Under the pieces are notes generated by a model, which was given only the letters and a program-made list of their open reading frames with translations, did not search any database and had not been told where the DNA came from. From NCBI RefSeq assembly GCF_000443995.1, contig NZ_AUMC01000006.1, positions 434,001 to 498,000 on the forward strand: a DNA stretch of 64,000 nt. Direction: 5' to 3'. The stretch is from Bacteriovorax sp. BAL6_X. GTDB lineage: Bacteria > Bdellovibrionota > Bacteriovoracia > Bacteriovoracales > Bacteriovoracaceae. The position numbers and the translations under genes are program-made. This document shows, piece by piece, positions 7,657 through 43,797 of this stretch. Position 1 is the first letter of the stretch, and each line of letters begins with the position of its first letter.

Positions 7657-7786
7657 TTTTTCTCCTTTCATAAAGCATACATGAAAGGTGACTTTTTTTA
7701 AATACAATAATAGTTGATTAAGATGCTAAAGTTATTCTTAATAATATCCGATAAAAACACTACGTAATTTGGACGTAGGAGGAATT

Positions 7787-33670: not shown

Positions 33671-33774
33671 TTGTATAAGGGCCTAGCAAATCAGATAGAT
33701 TTTTCCAAAGCATAAATGGAATGTTGTTGCTTCGAATAAAATCTGCTAAATTGCCTAAATCATTAGGTATGTAC

Positions 33775-34812
33775 ATGAAAAGAGACAATTTAGAGGCCCA
33801 GGCCACGAGTGATCGTAAGCTTGAGCATATCAAATTAACGGATGCTGCTCAGACAGCACAAATCTTAGCTGATAAGCGCTTTTACTATGAGCCACTTTTT
33901 AGTGGTAATAGAGAAGTGCACGATCTCAGTCTTAACTTTGCTGGACATCAACTAGAATTACCTATTTGGGTATCATCAATGACTGGTGGAACAGGGGTTG
34001 CTGCAAAGATTAATGAAAATCTTGCACGGGCCTGCGCTGACTTTGGCATTGGAATGGGACTAGGCTCATGTCGAAAACTTCTTTCTAAGGAAGGTCGTAG
34101 TCAATACTTCAGCGACTTTGATATTTCTAAGTATACAGGTAAATCTCCATTTTATGCCAATCTTGGTGTGGCCCAATTAGAAGAGCTGATTGAAGATGGT
34201 GAACTTTATCGCGCCAAAGAGGTTGTTGAGCTACTTGGTGCTAATGGCCTAATTATTCACATAAATCCGGCCCAAGAATGGTTTCAACCTGAAGGTGACA
34301 TAATTAAACGCTCTCCGCTAGAGATTATTACGATCTGTTTAGAAGAGTTTGATTTTCCAATTATCGTCAAAGAAGTAGGACAGGGGATGGGGCCAAAATC
34401 ATTGGCCGCACTTATGCAATTGGAGCTGGCCGCAATAGAATTTGCTGCCTTTGGTGGAACTAATTTTTCTAAACTCGAATTTATTAGAAATTCCAATGAT
34501 TTATCTATTCATGAACCTCTGTGTCATGTTGGCCATACTGCCCTCGAAATGGTAAATATGAGCAATCAGATTATCGATCAATTAGGAGAGCAGGTAAGGT
34601 GTAAGAACTTTATTATCTCGGGTGGTATTAAATCATATATTGATGGTTTCTACCTATGTAGTCTCTCAAAAGGAAATGCCATCTTTGGTATGGCCAGTGA
34701 GTTCTTAAAAACAGCAATGGTTGATTATGAAAGTGTAAGTCGACAGATTACACAAATAAAAGCAGGTCTAGCATTTGCTAATTCATACCTTAGTGTAAGG
34801 AGTGAAAATTGA
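33775..34812 (+). CDS. fni: Type 2 isopentenyl-diphosphate delta-isomerase (FMN-dependent)
   Basis: 345 residues from the ATG MKRDNLEAQ; the longer frame from 33721 has no family support. IDI-2 motifs are in order: SSMTGGT near residue 71, KEVGQGM near 202, GGTNFSKLEF near 227 and SGGIKSYIDGF near 283, in agreement with FMN and substrate binding. It interconverts IPP and DMAPP. It opens the mevalonate operon: the next gene's TTG start overlaps its TGA stop. Confidence 0.95.
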   Translation: MKRDNLEAQATSDRKLEHIKLTDAAQTAQILADKRFYYEPLFSGNREVHDLSLNFAGHQLELPIWVSSMTGGTGVAAKINENLARACADFGIGMGLGSCRKLLSKEGRSQYFSDFDISKYTGKSPFYANLGVAQLEELIEDGELYRAKEVVELLGANGLIIHINPAQEWFQPEGDIIKRSPLEIITICLEEFDFPIIVKEVGQGMGPKSLAALMQLELAAIEFAAFGGTNFSKLEFIRNSNDLSIHEPLCHVGHTALEMVNMSNQIIDQLGEQVRCKNFIISGGIKSYIDGFYLCSLSKGNAIFGMASEFLKTAMVDYESVSRQITQIKAGLAFANSYLSVRSEN

Positions 34813-36089
34813 AATTGATTCAAGGTTTTTCAAAACTAACAAAAGAGCAGAAAGTAGACTTTATCTCAAAGAATCTTGAGAATGGTTCAAAAGAACAGAT
34901 CCTCTCTTTCTGGCATCAAGATCAAAAATTACAAAATACATTTGATGAATTCTCTGAGAATACCATCTCAAACTTCTTCTTACCTTATGGTGTGGTACCT
35001 AATTTTGTTATAAATCAAAAAGTCTATAACGTACCAATGGTTATTGAGGAAAGCTCTGTTGTTGCGGCACTATCAAAGGCCGCAAAGTTTTGGAGCTCGC
35101 GTGGTGGTTTTAAGGCCGAGATTATTGGTAGTGAGAAAATTGGTCAAGTGCACTTTGTTTACGAAGGTGACAAGGCCCAGCTTAAAGAGTTCTTTAATAA
35201 TGGAAGAATCGACATTCTAAACTCTCTTACTCCATTAACAATTAATATGGATAAAAGAGGTGGTGGGATTCGTTCGATCGAGTTAGTAGATCTAACAGAT
35301 AAGGAAGAAAACTACTATCAAATCAAGATGGCATTTGAAACTTGTGATGCAATGGGGGCCAACTTCATTAATTCAGTTTTAGAAGCTGTTGGGAAGTATT
35401 TAGAAAAAAGTCTAGGGGAGCATGTACAAGTTATTATGTGTATCCTTTCTAATTATACGCCTAATTGTAAGGCCCGTGCATGGGTTGAGTGTTCAATTGA
35501 AGACTTAAATGAAAAAAGTCTTGGAATGGATGCAAAAACTTTTGCACAAAAATTTGCTCGTGCAGTTCGCATTGCTCACATTGATCCACACCGTGCAACT
35601 ACTCACAACAAAGGTATCTTTAATGGTATCGATGGTGTTGTTATCGCGACAGGAAATGATTTTAGGGCCGTAGAGGCCTGTGGCCATACTTATGCTGCAA
35701 GAGACGGACAATATCGCTCTTTAACTAATTGTAAAATTGAAGGTGATAAGTTCTTATTTGAAATTGAAATTCCGCTAGCACTGGGAACTGTTGGTGGTTT
35801 AACAAAGCTGCATCCATTAGCGAAGATGTCACTTGATATTTTAGAGCGGCCAAGTGCTAACGAGTTAATGATGATTACAGCAAGTGTAGGTCTTGCTCAA
35901 AATTTTGCGGCCTTAAAGAGTTTAGTGACAAGCGGTATTCAAAAAGGTCATATGAAGATGCACCTGATGAATATTTTGGGACAGCTTGAAGCAAGTGATG
36001 AAGAGAAAGAAAAAATTGCAGACTACTTTACGGACAAGGTTGTTTCGTTCAGTGCAGTTAGAGAACAACTAGAGAGTTTAAGAAACTAA
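34809..36089 (+). CDS. mvaA: Hydroxymethylglutaryl-CoA reductase, class II (mevalonate synthesis)
   Basis: 426 residues, close to the ~428 of class II enzymes. The TTG start is fixed by AAGGAG 6 bases upstream (34797-34802) and by the family length. Motifs: PMVIEESSVVAA (catalytic Glu region, about 75-87), DAMGANFINSV (cofactor site, about 183-193), HNKGIFNGIDG, TGNDFRAVEACGH and the C-terminal GHMKMH with the catalytic His. Makes mevalonate from HMG-CoA with NAD(P)H. It overlaps fni by 3-4 bp and the next gene begins 3 bp after its stop. Confidence 0.97.
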   Translation: MKLIQGFSKLTKEQKVDFISKNLENGSKEQILSFWHQDQKLQNTFDEFSENTISNFFLPYGVVPNFVINQKVYNVPMVIEESSVVAALSKAAKFWSSRGGFKAEIIGSEKIGQVHFVYEGDKAQLKEFFNNGRIDILNSLTPLTINMDKRGGGIRSIELVDLTDKEENYYQIKMAFETCDAMGANFINSVLEAVGKYLEKSLGEHVQVIMCILSNYTPNCKARAWVECSIEDLNEKSLGMDAKTFAQKFARAVRIAHIDPHRATTHNKGIFNGIDGVVIATGNDFRAVEACGHTYAARDGQYRSLTNCKIEGDKFLFEIEIPLALGTVGGLTKLHPLAKMSLDILERPSANELMMITASVGLAQNFAALKSLVTSGIQKGHMKMHLMNILGQLEASDEEKEKIADYFTDKVVSFSAVREQLESLRN

Positions 36090-36092
36090 ATT

Positions 36093-37124
36093 ATGAACAC
36101 AACACACACAAGCAACACAATTTTAAAATATTTGGAAGGTGAACAATTTCTTGAACTTCCAAAGAACGGCCAACTATACTTTGGTCATGGAAAGCTACTT
36201 TTATCTGGAGAGTATTTTGTTTTAGACGGTGCTCAGGCACTTGGTCTACCAACGACTGTTGGACAGTCTCTTCGCGTTCAATACTCAGCTTCTTTTGACC
36301 CAAAATTATATTGGAAATCATATGATCCTGCAGGGAACCTATGGTTTGAAGTGATCTTTGAATTCTGGCACTTCAATATCTTAAATGACAACCCAACCAA
36401 GGAGATGATGGTTCTGCAACAGATGCTTAGACAAGCTCGAAAGCAGAATAAGCACTTCTTAAGAGATGGAGTTGATGTACATGTTGTTACTCAACTTGGA
36501 TTTCCTCTTGAGTGGGGCCTAGGTTCATCTTCAACTTTAATTCATAATATTGCTGACTGGGCGATGGTGTCACCATTTGAGCTTGCATTTAACACTCTTG
36601 GCGGCTCTGGTTATGATATTGCTTGTGCGCAAAGTGATGATCCACTTATCTATCAAAAAAGTGGTGATGGGCCAAAGTGGTCACCGGTTGAATTCAATCC
36701 ATCTTTTAAAAATAATCTATACTTTATTTACTTAGGTCATAAGAAAAACTCGCGTGATGCTATTGAGTACTATAATCAATTGCGTCCGCATTCGCCGGAG
36801 ATCATCAATACGATCAGTGAGTTATCTAATCAGATTGCTTCTGCTAAGACGCAGGAAGAATTTAACTTTTTAATCCGTGCCCATGAAGAAATTATCGGTA
36901 AACAACTTAAGCTTAAACCTATTAAACAAGAGGCCTTTAGCGACTTTGATGGAGAAATTAAGTCTCTTGGTGCGTGGGGCGGTGACTTCATTCTTGCTTC
37001 AACTATGAATAATAGAAGGTACGTTTCTAATTACTTCGAGGAAAAAGGCCTAAAGGTCATCATTCCTTACCGTGATTTAATTGTCGATAATGAACCAAAA
37101 GTTGAAGCTAATAATGTCCACTAA
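36093..37124 (+). CDS. GYDIA-type GHMP kinase, candidate phosphomevalonate kinase
   Basis: 343 residues. GHMP motifs: FGHGKLLLSGEYFVLDGA near the start, WGLGSSSTLIHNIADWA (phosphate loop, about 138-154) and GGSGYDIACAQSDDPL, the GYDIA signature of a family found beside mevalonate genes in Bacteroidetes. The pathway needs mevalonate kinase and phosphomevalonate kinase; a separate GHMP kinase (38199) better fits mevalonate kinase, leaving this one for the second phosphorylation. That assignment is inference. It lies between mvaA and mvaD; mvaD starts 11 bp inside its end. Confidence 0.85.
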   Translation: MNTTHTSNTILKYLEGEQFLELPKNGQLYFGHGKLLLSGEYFVLDGAQALGLPTTVGQSLRVQYSASFDPKLYWKSYDPAGNLWFEVIFEFWHFNILNDNPTKEMMVLQQMLRQARKQNKHFLRDGVDVHVVTQLGFPLEWGLGSSSTLIHNIADWAMVSPFELAFNTLGGSGYDIACAQSDDPLIYQKSGDGPKWSPVEFNPSFKNNLYFIYLGHKKNSRDAIEYYNQLRPHSPEIINTISELSNQIASAKTQEEFNFLIRAHEEIIGKQLKLKPIKQEAFSDFDGEIKSLGAWGGDFILASTMNNRRYVSNYFEEKGLKVIIPYRDLIVDNEPKVEANNVH

Positions 37125-38199
37125 TTTTAAGTTAATGAATTATAAAATAAATAAATTAAACGACGGTCACTCTTTTAAAGTAAAGAGTCCTTCTAATATT
37201 GCGTTGATTAAGTACTGGGGAAAGTATGGAGAGCAGCTACCTTCAAATCCTTCTCTTAGTATTACTCTTGATAATGCCCATACTTTGACTACTTATAAGA
37301 TTTCAAAATCGGATAAGTTTGAATTAAATTTTAAGTTTGAATCAATGAGTAATGAGAAGTTCCAGGCACGAGTTGAAAAGTTTTTTAACCGAGCAGTTGA
37401 GTTCTTCCCATTTATCAATGAATGTCGAATTGAAATGGATTCAATGAATTCATTTCCTCATTCTTCTGGAATTGCTTCCTCTGCAGCGTCGATGTCAAAC
37501 TTTGCTAGTGCACTTTGTGAGATTGAAAAGGTTGTTACTGAAGAAGACCACGATGAAGAATACTACCAAAAGAAGGCCTCTTTTATGGCCCGTCTAGGTT
37601 CAGGTAGTGCATCTCGTTCTCTTTTTCCAAAAATGTCGATCTGGGGTAAGTCCGTTCAGGGAAGCTCTCAAGAATATGCTATAGGTTTAGATAGTTATGA
37701 TAAGTCATTTGAAGGAATTTGTGACTCTATTGCTATTGTAAGCGCTAGTGAGAAGGCGGTAAGCTCTAGTGCTGGCCATGCTCTGATGAATACACATCCA
37801 TTCGCAAAAACTCGTTTTTTAAATGCTTGTAATAATTTTAACTCACTTTGCTTTGCCTTGAGTCGTGGTGACTTTAAGTCCTTTGCTGAAATTGTTGAGG
37901 CCGAGGCCTTGGAATTACACGGCCTAATGATGAACTCGAAACCGTCATTTATTCTGATGGAACCAAATACATTAGCAATTATCGCTAAGATTAGAGATTT
38001 TAGAGGACAAACTGGTGCAAAGATTTGTTTCACTCTTGATGCTGGGCCAAATGTACATATACTTTACTTAAAAGAAGATGAGGCCAAAGTTCGCCAATTT
38101 ATTGAAGAGGAAGTAAGAGGCCTTTGTCATAATAATGTTGTTATCCATGATCACATGGGCAATGGCATTGAAGTGGAATACTTAAGTCGAGATTCATAA
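37114..38199 (+). CDS. mvaD: Diphosphomevalonate decarboxylase
   Basis: 361 residues. Signatures SPSNIALIKYWGKYGEQLPSNPS (residues about 25-47 contain the NIALIKYWGK block), SGIASSAASMSNFA (phosphate loop) and GSGSASRS with the catalytic neighbourhood, as in MvaD. It makes isopentenyl diphosphate from diphosphomevalonate using ATP. The start overlaps the upstream gene by 11 bp; the ATG two codons later is also possible. The next gene starts at the base of its stop (TAATG), which shows tight operon coupling. Confidence 0.95.
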   Translation: MSTNFKLMNYKINKLNDGHSFKVKSPSNIALIKYWGKYGEQLPSNPSLSITLDNAHTLTTYKISKSDKFELNFKFESMSNEKFQARVEKFFNRAVEFFPFINECRIEMDSMNSFPHSSGIASSAASMSNFASALCEIEKVVTEEDHDEEYYQKKASFMARLGSGSASRSLFPKMSIWGKSVQGSSQEYAIGLDSYDKSFEGICDSIAIVSASEKAVSSSAGHALMNTHPFAKTRFLNACNNFNSLCFALSRGDFKSFAEIVEAEALELHGLMMNSKPSFILMEPNTLAIIAKIRDFRGQTGAKICFTLDAGPNVHILYLKEDEAKVRQFIEEEVRGLCHNNVVIHDHMGNGIEVEYLSRDS

Positions 38200-39101
38200 T
38201 GGAAAGTGTTGGCAGTTTTAGCGCAAAAATTCTTCTCTTTGGTGAGTACTCAATCATTCGCTCGTCAAAAGCGTTAGCGATGCCTTATTCGCTTTTTGAT
38301 GGGAAACTAAACTTTCCTGAAAAGCAAAACACAGGAGTTGATTCTGAGTTATCTGCATTTTCACAGTACCTAAAGAAACAAAATGAGAAGGGAAATCTAA
38401 GTTTTAACTTTGATCATCAATCATTTTCTTTTGATATCTCAAGTGGCATTAGATTTAAGTCAACAATTCCACAAGGCTATGGGGTAGGGAGTTCCGGCGC
38501 ATTATGCGCTGCTGTTTTTGACCGCTATGCTCGTATTAGCGATGAACAAAAAAATGATATAGCATTTTTAAAAGATTGCTTTAAAGAAATGGAATCCCAC
38601 TTTCATGGATCTTCATCGGGCGTTGATCCACTAATTAGTTATTTAAATGTACCACTTCTAATTGATAGCAAGAAGCAACTGACTGAAGTTGTTTTAAAAA
38701 ATGACTCTAAAGGTCCTGGGCTATTTCTTTTAAATACTGGCCGTGCCCGAAGAACAGAACCACTTGTAAACTTATTTATGGAAAAGTGTTCCTCTAAAGA
38801 CTTCGCATATCTTTGTGATCGTGTTTTAACGCCAATATCTGATGAGTGTATAAAACATTATATTAATGATGATCGTGAAAAGCTTTGGAAGGAGTTTAAA
38901 GAGTTATCTTCTTTTCAATTTGAACATTTTAATCCGATGATTCCTGCACTTTACCGAGACCTTTGGACAGAAGGCCTTGAGTCGAATGATTTCTATTTAA
39001 AATTATGTGGTGCCGGTGGTGGTGGGTTTCTTCTCGGACTCGCACGCGATATCTCAAAGTTACCACCACAGCTTTCTAGTTTCGAAATTAGACCTGTTTA
39101 G
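38199..39101 (+). CDS. mvk: Mevalonate kinase (GHMP kinase)
   Basis: 300 residues. KILLFGEYSII near residue 10, QGYGVGSSGALCAAVFDRYA (phosphate loop, about 90-109), HGSSSGVDPLISY (about 130-142) and LCGAGGGGFLLG (about 268-279) follow GHMP and mevalonate kinase order. It phosphorylates mevalonate at the 5 position. Last gene of the operon; its stop overlaps the convergent crotonase-like gene by 4 bp. The GEY rather than GEH block leaves a small chance that it and the GYDIA kinase have exchanged roles. Confidence 0.85.
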   Translation: MESVGSFSAKILLFGEYSIIRSSKALAMPYSLFDGKLNFPEKQNTGVDSELSAFSQYLKKQNEKGNLSFNFDHQSFSFDISSGIRFKSTIPQGYGVGSSGALCAAVFDRYARISDEQKNDIAFLKDCFKEMESHFHGSSSGVDPLISYLNVPLLIDSKKQLTEVVLKNDSKGPGLFLLNTGRARRTEPLVNLFMEKCSSKDFAYLCDRVLTPISDECIKHYINDDREKLWKEFKELSSFQFEHFNPMIPALYRDLWTEGLESNDFYLKLCGAGGGGFLLGLARDISKLPPQLSSFEIRPV

Positions 39102-40039: not shown

Positions 40040-41764
40040 CTAAGAAGCTTTTTTTCTCATTAAATTTTCCACAAAAATACTTTCAGTGTTCTTATAAGAA
40101 ATGGACTTATCACATGAATTTAATGTGTTAAGGATATATTCCTGTAGTTGAGTGCTTTGGTTGCTATTTACAATTCTTTTTGTATCCCTCGTTCTGAGGT
40201 TAAGTTGGAGTACCTGTTCATTTACCTCAGACTTTAAAAGGGCCTTAATAATTATTGCATGTAGGGTACTATTATTGAAGTCCCAGTTAGCTGCTTCTAA
40301 ATCATTTATTGATTCTTGTGAGAGTTTCTTTATGCTCATATCGCGTTTCGTGCACTCATACTTAATATAGTGTTTTGCGATTTCAACAATTTCCGCTCGA
40401 CGAAGTCGAAGAGGTGGAATATTAAGTTTTACCGTTGTAATGAGATTGTAGAGGTCTGTTAAAATGATGTCATTCTTTTCAAGTGCTTTTAGATCGTTAG
40501 TAGCAATAGTTACAATTCTTATTTTTAGCGACCTAATAATATTGTAAAAAGTTGTTTGTTCATCGTAACTTAGCATCTCAAGGTTTCTAACGATGAAATC
40601 TTTTATTCCCTTATTTGTCAGCTCGCTTATTTGTTCAAGCTTTTTATGATTGGCAACTTCATTATCATTAAAATCAATAACATTTTCATTATTATCGCCA
40701 CAAATGTAGTGTGCATACGCAGTTTTTCCAAGGCCTACTTCTCCGTGGATATAGAGATTCTCCCTAGTGTTCTTAATAGTATTTAGTGTGTTAATTATCG
40801 ATTGGCCGGTTTGCGACTTATCACTGAAAATGAAGTGGTCTGGAAGTTTATTTTCTACCTTTTCACTACTTATAGTATGCTTTTTACCCGCATAAAAATA
40901 AGAGATTAGACTAGCAATAATCTTTATGTTTTCAATCATCGTAAAATTAAATTTACCACCTGAAACACTATTGGACATACAGATAATACCAATACTTTCT
41001 CCATTATGATTAACGATAGGAGACATTAAAATATTTTTAATATCGACATCCACACCTGTTGCTTTTTTTTCATAAAAACTTTTGTTAATGATAACTTTAT
41101 TGAAATAGGCTTCTTTTAGAATACTGTGAAAGCTATGATCCCTCGGTGTAATGTCACTATTTGTTCTTTCAATTTCAAACTCACCTGTTTTGGCATCAAA
41201 GAGAAAGATATGGTAGTTTTCACATCGAAAAATACTAGGAAGCTCATTTAAAATATCGATAATCTTACCACTATATGTCTTTTGAATTAAGCTTTGAAAA
41301 AGTGAAAATAATTCAACCCCATCATCACGATTGATCTTTATTTTATTTTGGCAGATTTGAAAGAGCTTATCTTTAAGCTTGGTAGTTCGGTAATGTGATA
41401 AAAAATCTTTCAAAAAGTATTTTAAAACTGTTGTTTGAGAATTTGGCTCAATTGAAATTCCATAAATAGTCTTTGTCACATCCTCACAGTAGATGAATGA
41501 TCGGATGATTATTCCTGTTAGCTCAAAATCCCAGTTATTAAATAGCCTTTTGGTTGCTATCTTGATTTTTACTTTCTCGCCAATTGAATACTTTTGAGAA
41601 CAAATGAAGTTTAGTCCCGATAGATTTATTGAGTCAATACGAACATTATTATGCTTGATATTTTCTCGCTCTACTGTGATAACTTCAGCATTTACTTTAT
41701 CTTCCTCTTGAATTGGGAAGCGATATGATTTGAAAAATTTATAATTTTGAATATTAAATTTCAA
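40040..41764 (-). CDS. PilZ-GAF-AAA+ protein (sigma54-activator-like without GAFTGA)
   Basis: 574 residues. An N-terminal PilZ-like domain (about 5-125, with INLSGLNF), a GAF-like middle (about 155-300) and an AAA+ module with Walker A GEVGLGKT (about 340-347). The C-terminal part has NIPPLRLRRAEIVEIA, a hallmark of the NtrC-type sensor region, then a helical tail. The Walker B place (DFIVRNLEML) lacks the usual Asp-Glu, and no GAFTGA loop is present, so it is unlikely to activate sigma54 polymerase. Divergent from a paralogue with 113 bp between start codons. No receiver domain. Confidence 0.8.
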   Translation of the reverse strand: MKFNIQNYKFFKSYRFPIQEEDKVNAEVITVERENIKHNNVRIDSINLSGLNFICSQKYSIGEKVKIKIATKRLFNNWDFELTGIIIRSFIYCEDVTKTIYGISIEPNSQTTVLKYFLKDFLSHYRTTKLKDKLFQICQNKIKINRDDGVELFSLFQSLIQKTYSGKIIDILNELPSIFRCENYHIFLFDAKTGEFEIERTNSDITPRDHSFHSILKEAYFNKVIINKSFYEKKATGVDVDIKNILMSPIVNHNGESIGIICMSNSVSGGKFNFTMIENIKIIASLISYFYAGKKHTISSEKVENKLPDHFIFSDKSQTGQSIINTLNTIKNTRENLYIHGEVGLGKTAYAHYICGDNNENVIDFNDNEVANHKKLEQISELTNKGIKDFIVRNLEMLSYDEQTTFYNIIRSLKIRIVTIATNDLKALEKNDIILTDLYNLITTVKLNIPPLRLRRAEIVEIAKHYIKYECTKRDMSIKKLSQESINDLEAANWDFNNSTLHAIIIKALLKSEVNEQVLQLNLRTRDTKRIVNSNQSTQLQEYILNTLNSCDKSISYKNTESIFVENLMRKKAS

Positions 41765-41877
41765 TGATTCCTCAATTATAGGTTCAATTTCAGATATCTC
41801 CTTATCGACGATTTCTTTAGAATTTTTATATCTCTCTAAGTTAAAGTTAGTAATTTTACTAGACGATAAATATTCAT

Positions 41878-43797
41878 ATGAAGAAACTTAGAAATTATCG
41901 TATTAAACTAAAAGAGTCAGATAATATAGAGTGTATTCTCTATGAAATGATTGGAGACTCAACTTCAAACTCATTTAATGTGGCCGTGGACAATATATCA
42001 ACAACGGGTATCGGTGTCCTTATTGGAGAATATGTAGATAGTCAGATTTTTAAGATTGAAATCAAGTTTAAAAAAATACGACTGTTTCAAACAGTTAAGT
42101 TAAGACGATATCGCCCTAATTTTAACAATGTAGGTGATCATTACCTAGGCCTTGAGTTTATTGACTACGAGGTCGAAAGTATTATGAATTTGATGACAGA
42201 ACTTGTTTCTTCAATGGGCAAAAGACGACTTCGAAACCTTATGTATGATATGGTTTTAAATGAGGCCGTGGCAGGCAATTATGATTCTGATAATACATTT
42301 GATAAAGATATCGATGATAATGTTTCTGTCTCAATGATTCTCGATTTATTTCACATCTTTAAAAATTATCGCAATAAAGTTGAACTGATAAAGTTATTCA
42401 TTATAGAGGTCCAAAGAATTGTAAAGGCAAGAGACGCTAGGGCCTTTATTGTAGGGCATGATGAGCACACTTTCAGTGAGTTTGATTTTCAAACTAACCA
42501 GCTTAAAGAAATTGAGTACCCGATTGTTGGAATACTTGAGGAGCTGTACAACAATCCTCGTGGGATAAAGTCTAAATTCTCCCAATCTTTATCAAGTGAT
42601 GAATTCTTTAATATGTACGAAGTTGTTAATAATACGACAATCTCTACATATATGATGTGTCCAATTTTTGATCATAATGAAAATATCTTTGGGATATTAA
42701 ACTTTTCAAATAAAGAAAAGAATGAACTCTTTAGTGATAATGATCTAAAACAGGCGATGTTTTTAGCACGAGTTATTGGCCTTCTCTATTTTTATAAGAG
42801 TGATGAGATCGAAGAGTATGAAGAATATAATATTGACTACGATAATGAGTACGAAGATGATGTCGCTTTAGATACTTCTATGGGAATAAGTGTTTTTGCT
42901 AAAGGAGCACAATCGTTCTTAGAACAATATAGCGCGCCTAATGAAAAAGGGCCTGTTTATATTTATGGTGGTGAGGGAAGTGGTAAGTACTATCTTTGTG
43001 AGAAAATTGCTCGTCAGTCTAATACTGCCAACACTCATCTCGAGGTAGTTAATTGCTATGCTAAAATGTCAAAGAAGGATATTGACGATATCGTTGATAA
43101 GATTAGAGACCGTGTCATTAATGGCCATGTCATTTTTAAGGGCCTTGACAAGCTTTCAACAAGTGTCGCTAGTCATATTATTGATACAGTTGATAAGAGA
43201 GAGTCATTTAGAATCCTATTTACTGGTACCGTTTATTTGAGTGATTTAACGATACCAAGTTTTAAAACCATCTCACTTGTCGAGAGAAAAGAAGATATTC
43301 TATTCTTTGCGAATTACTTTATCTCACAATATAGTCTAAAGAATCATACCACTAAAAAACGTCTTTCTCACCGTGTTCAAAAAATGCTCCTTGAATATGA
43401 CTGGCCTGGTAATATTTCAGAGCTCAAGGCCTGTATTGCAAGGCTAATGATATTTAACAAAGGCAGTGGAAACTTAACGATTAGAACAAGTGAAATTACT
43501 CCTTTATTTGAAAAGGATATACAGCCACAAATATCGATTGAGGCCAATGATTTAAAAATCAATGCCTTCGATGAACACGACTTGAATGAACAGGAATGTG
43601 CAGACCTTTATCTTTACTTCTTTGTGGCCAAGCAGTTAAAGGAAGGAGCTGTTGGGCTTAAGTCTGTGGCAAAGAGTACTTTAATTGATTATGAGGATAT
43701 GGTAGTTCGGCTTAAAAGTGGAAGTAAGGTTGTAAAGCGCTTATTTAATGAAACTGTTGAAAGAGTGGAGCTGTATATTTCCGATAATGTGGCCTAG
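41878..43797 (+). CDS. PilZ-GAF-AAA+ paralogue with degenerate Walker motifs
   Basis: 639 residues. PilZ domain (about 5-120, DNISTTGIGV and YLGLEFIDYE), GAF-like part (about 170-300), a very acidic linker (about 320-345, many Glu/Asp/Tyr), then AAA+ (about 355-540) with GGEGSGKYY in place of Walker A (Lys kept, following Thr/Ser lost) and GHVIFKGLDKLS in place of Walker B. WPGNISELKA (about 506-515) is the usual C-terminal AAA/NtrC block. No GAFTGA. The C-terminal 70 residues differ from a helix-turn-helix. Likely a c-di-GMP- or ligand-controlled partner of the divergent paralogue. Confidence 0.8.
   Translation: MKKLRNYRIKLKESDNIECILYEMIGDSTSNSFNVAVDNISTTGIGVLIGEYVDSQIFKIEIKFKKIRLFQTVKLRRYRPNFNNVGDHYLGLEFIDYEVESIMNLMTELVSSMGKRRLRNLMYDMVLNEAVAGNYDSDNTFDKDIDDNVSVSMILDLFHIFKNYRNKVELIKLFIIEVQRIVKARDARAFIVGHDEHTFSEFDFQTNQLKEIEYPIVGILEELYNNPRGIKSKFSQSLSSDEFFNMYEVVNNTTISTYMMCPIFDHNENIFGILNFSNKEKNELFSDNDLKQAMFLARVIGLLYFYKSDEIEEYEEYNIDYDNEYEDDVALDTSMGISVFAKGAQSFLEQYSAPNEKGPVYIYGGEGSGKYYLCEKIARQSNTANTHLEVVNCYAKMSKKDIDDIVDKIRDRVINGHVIFKGLDKLSTSVASHIIDTVDKRESFRILFTGTVYLSDLTIPSFKTISLVERKEDILFFANYFISQYSLKNHTTKKRLSHRVQKMLLEYDWPGNISELKACIARLMIFNKGSGNLTIRTSEITPLFEKDIQPQISIEANDLKINAFDEHDLNEQECADLYLYFFVAKQLKEGAVGLKSVAKSTLIDYEDMVVRLKSGSKVVKRLFNETVERVELYISDNVA

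Follow-up and report, generated by a model that had tools for sequence, protein, structure and literature searches.

VpsR and FleQ are NtrC-type regulators that respond to cyclic di-GMP (c-di-GMP) and are able to act without sigma54, while the NifA and NorR class of bacterial enhancer-binding proteins (bEBPs) takes its input through a GAF domain. Here we describe a divergent gene pair, M and P, in a stretch of 64,000 nucleotides from Bacteriovorax sp. BAL6_X, a predatory bacterium of the Bdellovibrionota (assembly GCF_000443995.1, contig NZ_AUMC01000006.1, positions 434,001 to 498,000; called the window below), whose genome is 3.2 Mb in size. Both large open reading frames (ORFs) lie exactly where the original prediction, made from the window alone, had placed them, with 113 bases between them (Table 1). 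Judging from profile alignments and phylogeny, M and P are derived paralogues of S, a regulator found family-wide in the Bacteriovoracaceae. The group resembles VpsR and FleQ in the NtrC-type AAA+ fold (VIA Z about 19 for M), in a likely sigma54-independent action and in a link to cyclic dinucleotides. It differs in that N-terminal PilZ and GAF sensing replaces the receiver, the L1 loop is wholly deleted, the DNA-binding domain is lost (M) or eroded (P), and the C-terminus bears a degron-like tail. S has the GAF-AAA+-Fis order of the NifA/NorR class, and the NCBIfam NorR and NifA models match its GAF and AAA+ parts, though at scores far under the equivalog cut-offs; it lacks GAFTGA and the arginine fingers and carries an extra PilZ domain. 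In the literature searched, neither a PilZ-GAF-AAA+-Fis regulator nor such a gene pair is described, and we found there no earlier description of this tail and promoter logic on VpsR/FleQ-like regulators.

Relatives were searched with M and P, and the distribution was taken from profile searches of 129 family genomes in 48 genera. S is present as a single paralogue of ~650 amino acids in nearly every one. Every domain of its PilZ-GAF-AAA+-Fis architecture exceeds the curated Pfam cut-off (PilZ, 4.5e-6, with 27.4 bits against a cut-off of 22.5 bits; GAF, 2e-13; Sigma54_activat, 3e-21; the Fis-type helix-turn-helix (HTH) HTH_8, 1e-8; the AAA+ lid also passes). Searched alone against Pfam, M matches Sigma54_activ_2 (3e-15) and P matches AAA_lid_14 (3e-16), whereas neither gives a PilZ or GAF domain above threshold. 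These two domains were therefore assigned through homology to S, to which M and P align over nearly their full lengths by hhalign (E = 4e-83 and 1e-80, respectively). Thus, of the PilZ, GAF and NtrC-type AAA+ modules first proposed for both proteins, Pfam confirms the AAA+ module, and the other two follow by way of S. In the maximum-likelihood tree, M forms one clade (100/99) and P comes close to forming one, both outside S; long branches leave the exact order unsure. A phylum-wide profile search recovered full-length S from the Bacteriovoracaceae alone and, elsewhere, just the AAA+ and HTH part.

AlphaFold models of M and P, made from shallow alignments, have mean predicted local distance difference test scores of 72.6 each and predicted template modelling scores of 0.39 and 0.38, respectively. 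In Foldseek and VIA comparisons, the M model matches the AAA+ domains of FlrC, LuxO, NtrC4, VpsR and FleQ, with VIA Z values of 19-20 spanning the AAA+ part alone. The P model is matched by Foldseek to GAF structures in addition to NtrC-type AAA+ domains.

The motifs of the AAA+ module were counted in an alignment of 35 S, 17 P and 16 M sequences. The L1/GAFTGA loop, whose absence from M and P had been noticed in the window, is deleted in every aligned S, M and P, and when homologues with intact GAFTGA and Walker B were sought among them, none had GAFTGA. Arginine is missing at both finger positions in all three groups. The Walker B acidic pair is replaced by R-N in M and K-G in P of the window, as was also noticed, and its Asp is retained in just 2/35 S, 0/17 P and 2/16 M sequences. 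The Walker A Lys is kept in all 35 S, in 13 of the 16 M and in 15 of the 17 P, the remaining two P having Arg. The losses of the sigma54 loop and of catalytic residues are already found in S, and the erosion is, as read from this alignment, ancestral and not peculiar to M and P. Of the bEBP features, the NtrC-type AAA+ fold is thus present, while GAFTGA and the arginine fingers are absent, the Walker B DE is nearly always lost, and the DNA-binding HTH is missing in M and eroded in P. With the GAFTGA loop deleted, M and P almost certainly do not drive sigma54 polymerase, which agrees with the first proposal.

M and P bear no receiver domain, as had been stated. The accompanying statement that no output is obvious holds for M, which ends before the HTH, but S carries a Fis HTH and P a mostly acidic remnant of it that Pfam does not recognise. 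The mean net charge of the Fis HTH is +4.6 in S, against -1.9 for the aligned segment over the P orthologues. With the HTH missing in M and eroded in P, the two would act as non-DNA-binding partners. P retains more than M: Lys or Arg of Walker A is found in 17/17 P, and the PilZ signature [DN]xSxxG, invariant in S, is kept in 17/17 P, whereas M has lost Walker A in 3/16 sequences and has Asn in place of the PilZ Ser in 16/16. The M orthologues of one genus (L088:4542-6017, L251:3299-4795 and L252:3681-5171) are shortened to ~495 amino acids, and their Walker A is gone. Loss is therefore seen in three layers in the alignments: the sigma54 loop and catalysis in S, M and P; DNA binding, eroded in P and gone in M; and, in M, the PilZ signature and sometimes Walker A. 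The family would be a clear case of regulators that shed sigma54 function stepwise, loop and catalysis before DNA binding, with their control signals kept.

Those control signals are a promoter type and a tail, both of which are well supported as predicted features. In Bdellovibrio, FliA has been reported as the sigma factor of the attack phase (motif TTAAG-N16-CCGATA), and its motif is found at 92 of 140 attack-phase promoters of Bdellovibrio bacteriovorus (PMC3627812). The M-P intergenic region contains back-to-back sigma28 (FliA)-type sites. Over 16 such intergenic regions, the best matches to TAAAG-N14-16-GCCGATAA have, summed, 33 mismatches for the P promoter and 44 for the M promoter, against 78 +/- 3 and 81 +/- 3 in shuffles of the same regions (minimum 68 and 73). 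Three generic consensus patterns, sigma28 among them, were compared with these regions, and the deficit of mismatches relative to the shuffles makes the excess far larger than the choice of pattern would give; no sigma54 site is present in the M-P intergenic region, the best -24/-12 matches missing 3-5 positions. In most genomes, a sigma28 site also precedes the start of S by ~30-40 bases, with 2.3 mismatches on average compared with 4.8 +/- 0.1 after shuffling. The genome itself encodes FliA (277 bits), and the strict sigma28 pattern occurs 17 times genome-wide against one match of the reversed-pattern control. An upstream sigma28 promoter, judged against shuffles, is thus found for M, P and S alike, and would place them in a FliA regulon. 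The sites are similar to those of the Bdellovibrio attack-phase regulon (TAAAG-N15-GCCGATAA), but the regulon was defined by RNA sequencing in Bdellovibrio bacteriovorus and is predicted from sequence in the Bacteriovoracaceae. The P site is one of only two in the window with at most one mismatch; the other, at 7727-7754 (+), lies ahead of a small putative lipoprotein ORF of 83 amino acids.

The C-terminal tails of S, M and P are of the types KKAA, KKVA, EKVAA, KKVS and KKAS. In S, the tail lies 19-70 variable residues after the HTH. Among the named genomes, 74 of 78 S proteins end in AA or VA, as do 3 of 722 unrelated proteins of the same loci and none of 62 CdaA or 59 CdaR proteins, the background being the ORFs from 80 loci together with a coding-pattern scan. 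Relative entropy in S is 3.8 and 3.3 bits at positions -1 and -2 and 2.3 bits at -4 (Lys), and falls to ~0.5 by -9. The S tails draw on all four Ala codons and on each of the three stop codons, which places the constraint on the protein. The last residue is Ala, Ser or Gly in 17/17 P and 13/16 M, as counted by eye. A C-terminal Ala-Ala is a ClpXP degron, and in Caulobacter CdnL is stabilised when this Ala-Ala is replaced by Asp-Asp (PMC11034885); the ClpXP signal of MuA is RRKKAI (PMC8138137). Like the ClpXP substrates CdnL, MuA and ssrA-tagged proteins (C-terminal AA or KKAI), S, M and P have a C-terminus that is small and nonpolar, set behind a variable linker and often preceded by Lys; here, however, the tail is a putative degron and is shared by an entire family of signalling regulators. 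We infer that it acts as a ClpXP-type degron, a degron-like peptide being present on all three proteins. The genome encodes ClpX, and its transfer-messenger RNA (tmRNA) tag ends in MAA.

The coding pattern ending in [KE][KE][AV]A has 38 matches in the same genome, against 16 for the reversed-pattern control. By eye, the proteins with such tails (L257, L260, L261, L264, L267, L270, L277, L280 and L281) include CheW-like, methyl-accepting chemotaxis, CpaF/TadA-type ATPase and cyclic-nucleotide-binding-like proteins. Two further PilZ proteins of this genome (L003 and L004) end in -KAA and -NAA. Just one of seven other tail-bearing genes has a FliA site clearly better than shuffles, which indicates that the tail does not generally go together with a FliA promoter.

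M and P co-occur in the same 17 of the 129 genomes (5 of the 48 genera), where they invariably lie side by side in divergent orientation, 80-170 bases apart in the genomes with both starts; in one genome, M is cut by the contig end. The divergent arrangement, which the original prediction proposed seeking in related genomes, was hence found in every genome having either gene. Gene content and order identify M and P as an old inherited pair and not a local accident, and their constant divergent pairing fits a shared complex.

We propose that S, M and P are sigma54-independent, ligand-gated attack-phase regulators that are cleared by proteolysis, and that M and P act as partners, either of each other or of S, that do not bind DNA themselves; we regard this reading as modestly probable. 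Transcribed from FliA promoters, the three would be made with the motile attack-phase programme, by analogy with Bdellovibrio. S would bind its DNA targets through the Fis HTH and sense ligands through PilZ, probably c-di-GMP, and through GAF, while its AAA+ module would serve as a platform for oligomerisation and nucleotide binding that works without sigma54, as VpsR does. M, without an HTH, and P, with an eroded one, would form hetero-oligomers, either together or by joining S, or both, and would tune S by ligand; most likely they modulate S or each other. ClpXP, or a protease like it, may then recognise the small nonpolar tag at the C-terminus, and S, M and P would be removed at the end of the attack phase.

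Alternatively, M and P may be duplicates of S that serve no selected function and are in decay. They diverge very fast, M and P orthologues being 24-32% and 19-28% identical to the window copies, respectively, where S is 44-70% identical to its copy in this genome; their HTH and catalytic motifs are lost; and they are absent from 112 of the 129 genomes. Yet the frames are open, the divergent promoters, tails and neighbours are conserved over several genera, and M and P always co-occur, which makes decay improbable. At least as hard to sustain is the model originally put forward, in which an ATP-binding M and a pseudo-ATPase P form a ligand-controlled hetero-oligomer. It drew on GKT in M against GKY in P of the window, and the obligate pairing fits it. 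However, GKT occurs in just 2 of 16 M orthologues, the others reading GKE, GKN, GKA or KKH and three having no Walker A, while P keeps Lys or Arg in 17/17. Of the 6 activator-like proteins in this genome, 4 read GKE, canonical activators included; a missing Thr or Ser after the Walker A Lys is accordingly no sign of erosion, and in Walker A motifs of the NtrC type GKT has no diagnostic value. We consider this model very improbable, slightly more so than decay. The original prediction was mostly right in its observations, as to domains, sigma54 inactivity and pairing, and wrong in its central mechanistic claim of an ATP asymmetry; S, the tail and the FliA promoters had escaped it.

The nature of the ligand and of the tail should also be weighed. 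PilZ homology is present in all three proteins (above the Pfam cut-off in S; by alignment to S in M and P), and the PilZ domain of S would probably sense c-di-GMP. In ~61 of 79 named loci (e.g. L091:6001-7926, among L091-L170), cdaA and usually cdaR, the c-di-AMP synthase operon (Pfam DAC, 5e-43; YbbR, 1e-14), come next after S on its strand. This adjacency makes a ligand other than c-di-GMP possible, and the incomplete PilZ RxxxR points the same way. That S, M and P answer to c-di-AMP or another ligand nevertheless seems unlikely to us, since [DN]xSxxG is invariant in S and retained in P, cdaA is not adjacent to S in the genome studied here, and adjacency by itself is no proof of ligand identity. 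CheW-like, methyl-accepting chemotaxis and CpaF/TadA-type proteins are usually stable and localised, and like tails on such proteins of the same genome raise the alternative that the tail serves in docking or localisation, a PDZ-like or polar partner being one example. Set against it are the tmRNA tag ending in MAA, the presence of ClpX and the experimentally established role of a terminal AA as a ClpXP signal elsewhere (PMC11034885); docking is, on balance, somewhat unlikely. Several points weigh against the proposal made above: in three of the 16 M orthologues, the last residue is other than Ala, Ser or Gly; the tag might serve a non-proteolytic role, like tails being found on other proteins of the genome; the P promoter of this genome lies only 8 bases from the ATG, which would imply a nearly leaderless mRNA; RxxxR is reduced to one Arg in S and to RxxR in P and is absent in M, so that the affinity for c-di-GMP is uncertain; and the HTH remnant of the window P has a net charge of +3, which makes the loss of DNA binding less clear than in the orthologues.

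Parts proposed for the exit from the attack phase in Bdellovibrio include FliA, c-di-GMP and a c-di-GMP-riboswitch RNA (PMC3627812). In S, a single gene of a family-wide predator regulator pairs a PilZ sensor with two control signals, a predicted sigma28 promoter and a degron-like tail, a combination that bears on this exit and makes the question directly testable. Tentatively, and with less confidence than in the proposal itself, we suggest a dedicated Bacteriovoracaceae switch made up of S, as a sigma54-independent sensor of cyclic dinucleotides, and, in some genera, of its non-DNA-binding paralogues M and P. FliA would turn all of them on during the attack phase, and a C-terminal degron common to them would lead to their removal at prey entry. 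If so, proteolysis as well as a sigma factor would time the predatory life cycle.

Table 1. Features of the M/P locus in window coordinates, and the S copy of the same genome
Feature	Position	Strand	Basis
Gene M, 574-aa degenerate PilZ-GAF-AAA+ protein, no HTH, TTG start	40040..41764	-	ORF; Pfam AAA+; hhalign to S; orthologues
M C-terminal tail RKKAS, degron-like	40043..40057	-	Tails across family
M AAA+ domain with lid (degenerate; residues ~316-518), GAFTGA loop missing, R-N at Walker B	40211..40819	-	Pfam; Foldseek/VIA; motif table
M Walker A GEVGLGKT	40721..40744	-	Motif table
M GAF-like domain, residues ~145-295	40880..41332	-	hhalign alignment with the GAF domain of S (itself Pfam 2e-13)
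M PilZ-like domain, residues ~20-123, DxSxxG changed to xxNLxG	41396..41707	-	hhalign columns to S PilZ; motif table; predicted strands
M predicted sigma28 (FliA)-type promoter TAAAA-N14-GTCGATAA	41802..41828	-	Conserved over 16 intergenic regions
P predicted sigma28 (FliA)-type promoter TAAAG-N15-GACGATAA, 1 mismatch	41842..41869	+	Pattern scan
Gene P, 639-aa degenerate PilZ-GAF-AAA+ protein, eroded Fis-like HTH	41878..43797	+	ORF; Pfam; hhalign to S; orthologues
P PilZ-like domain, residues ~5-112, RxxR and NxSxxG kept	41890..42213	+	hhalign to S; motif table
P GAF-like domain, residues ~150-305	42325..42792	+	hhalign to S; Foldseek GAF matches (PDE2A, adenylyl cyclase)
P AAA+ domain with lid (degenerate; residues ~355-530), GAFTGA missing, K-G at Walker B	42940..43467	+	Pfam; Foldseek; motif table
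P Walker A GGEGSGK	42967..42987	+	Motif table
P Fis-type HTH remnant	43591..43746	+	Alignment to S HTH; net charge
P C-terminal tail SDNVA, degron-like	43780..43794	+	Tails across family
S, copy of the same genome, KKVA tail, FliA-type promoter	G000:C8:162663-164606	-	Homology search

The gene order around the pair is shared by several genera: mevalonate-pathway genes, an enoyl-CoA-hydratase-like gene (ECH), M, P and thioredoxin reductase (trxB). Mevalonate-pathway clusters are uncommon among Gram-negative bacteria. The cluster in the window, at 33721-39101 (+), comprises, as annotated by eye, isopentenyl diphosphate isomerase, hydroxymethylglutaryl-CoA reductase, GHMP kinases and a diphosphomevalonate decarboxylase-like gene.

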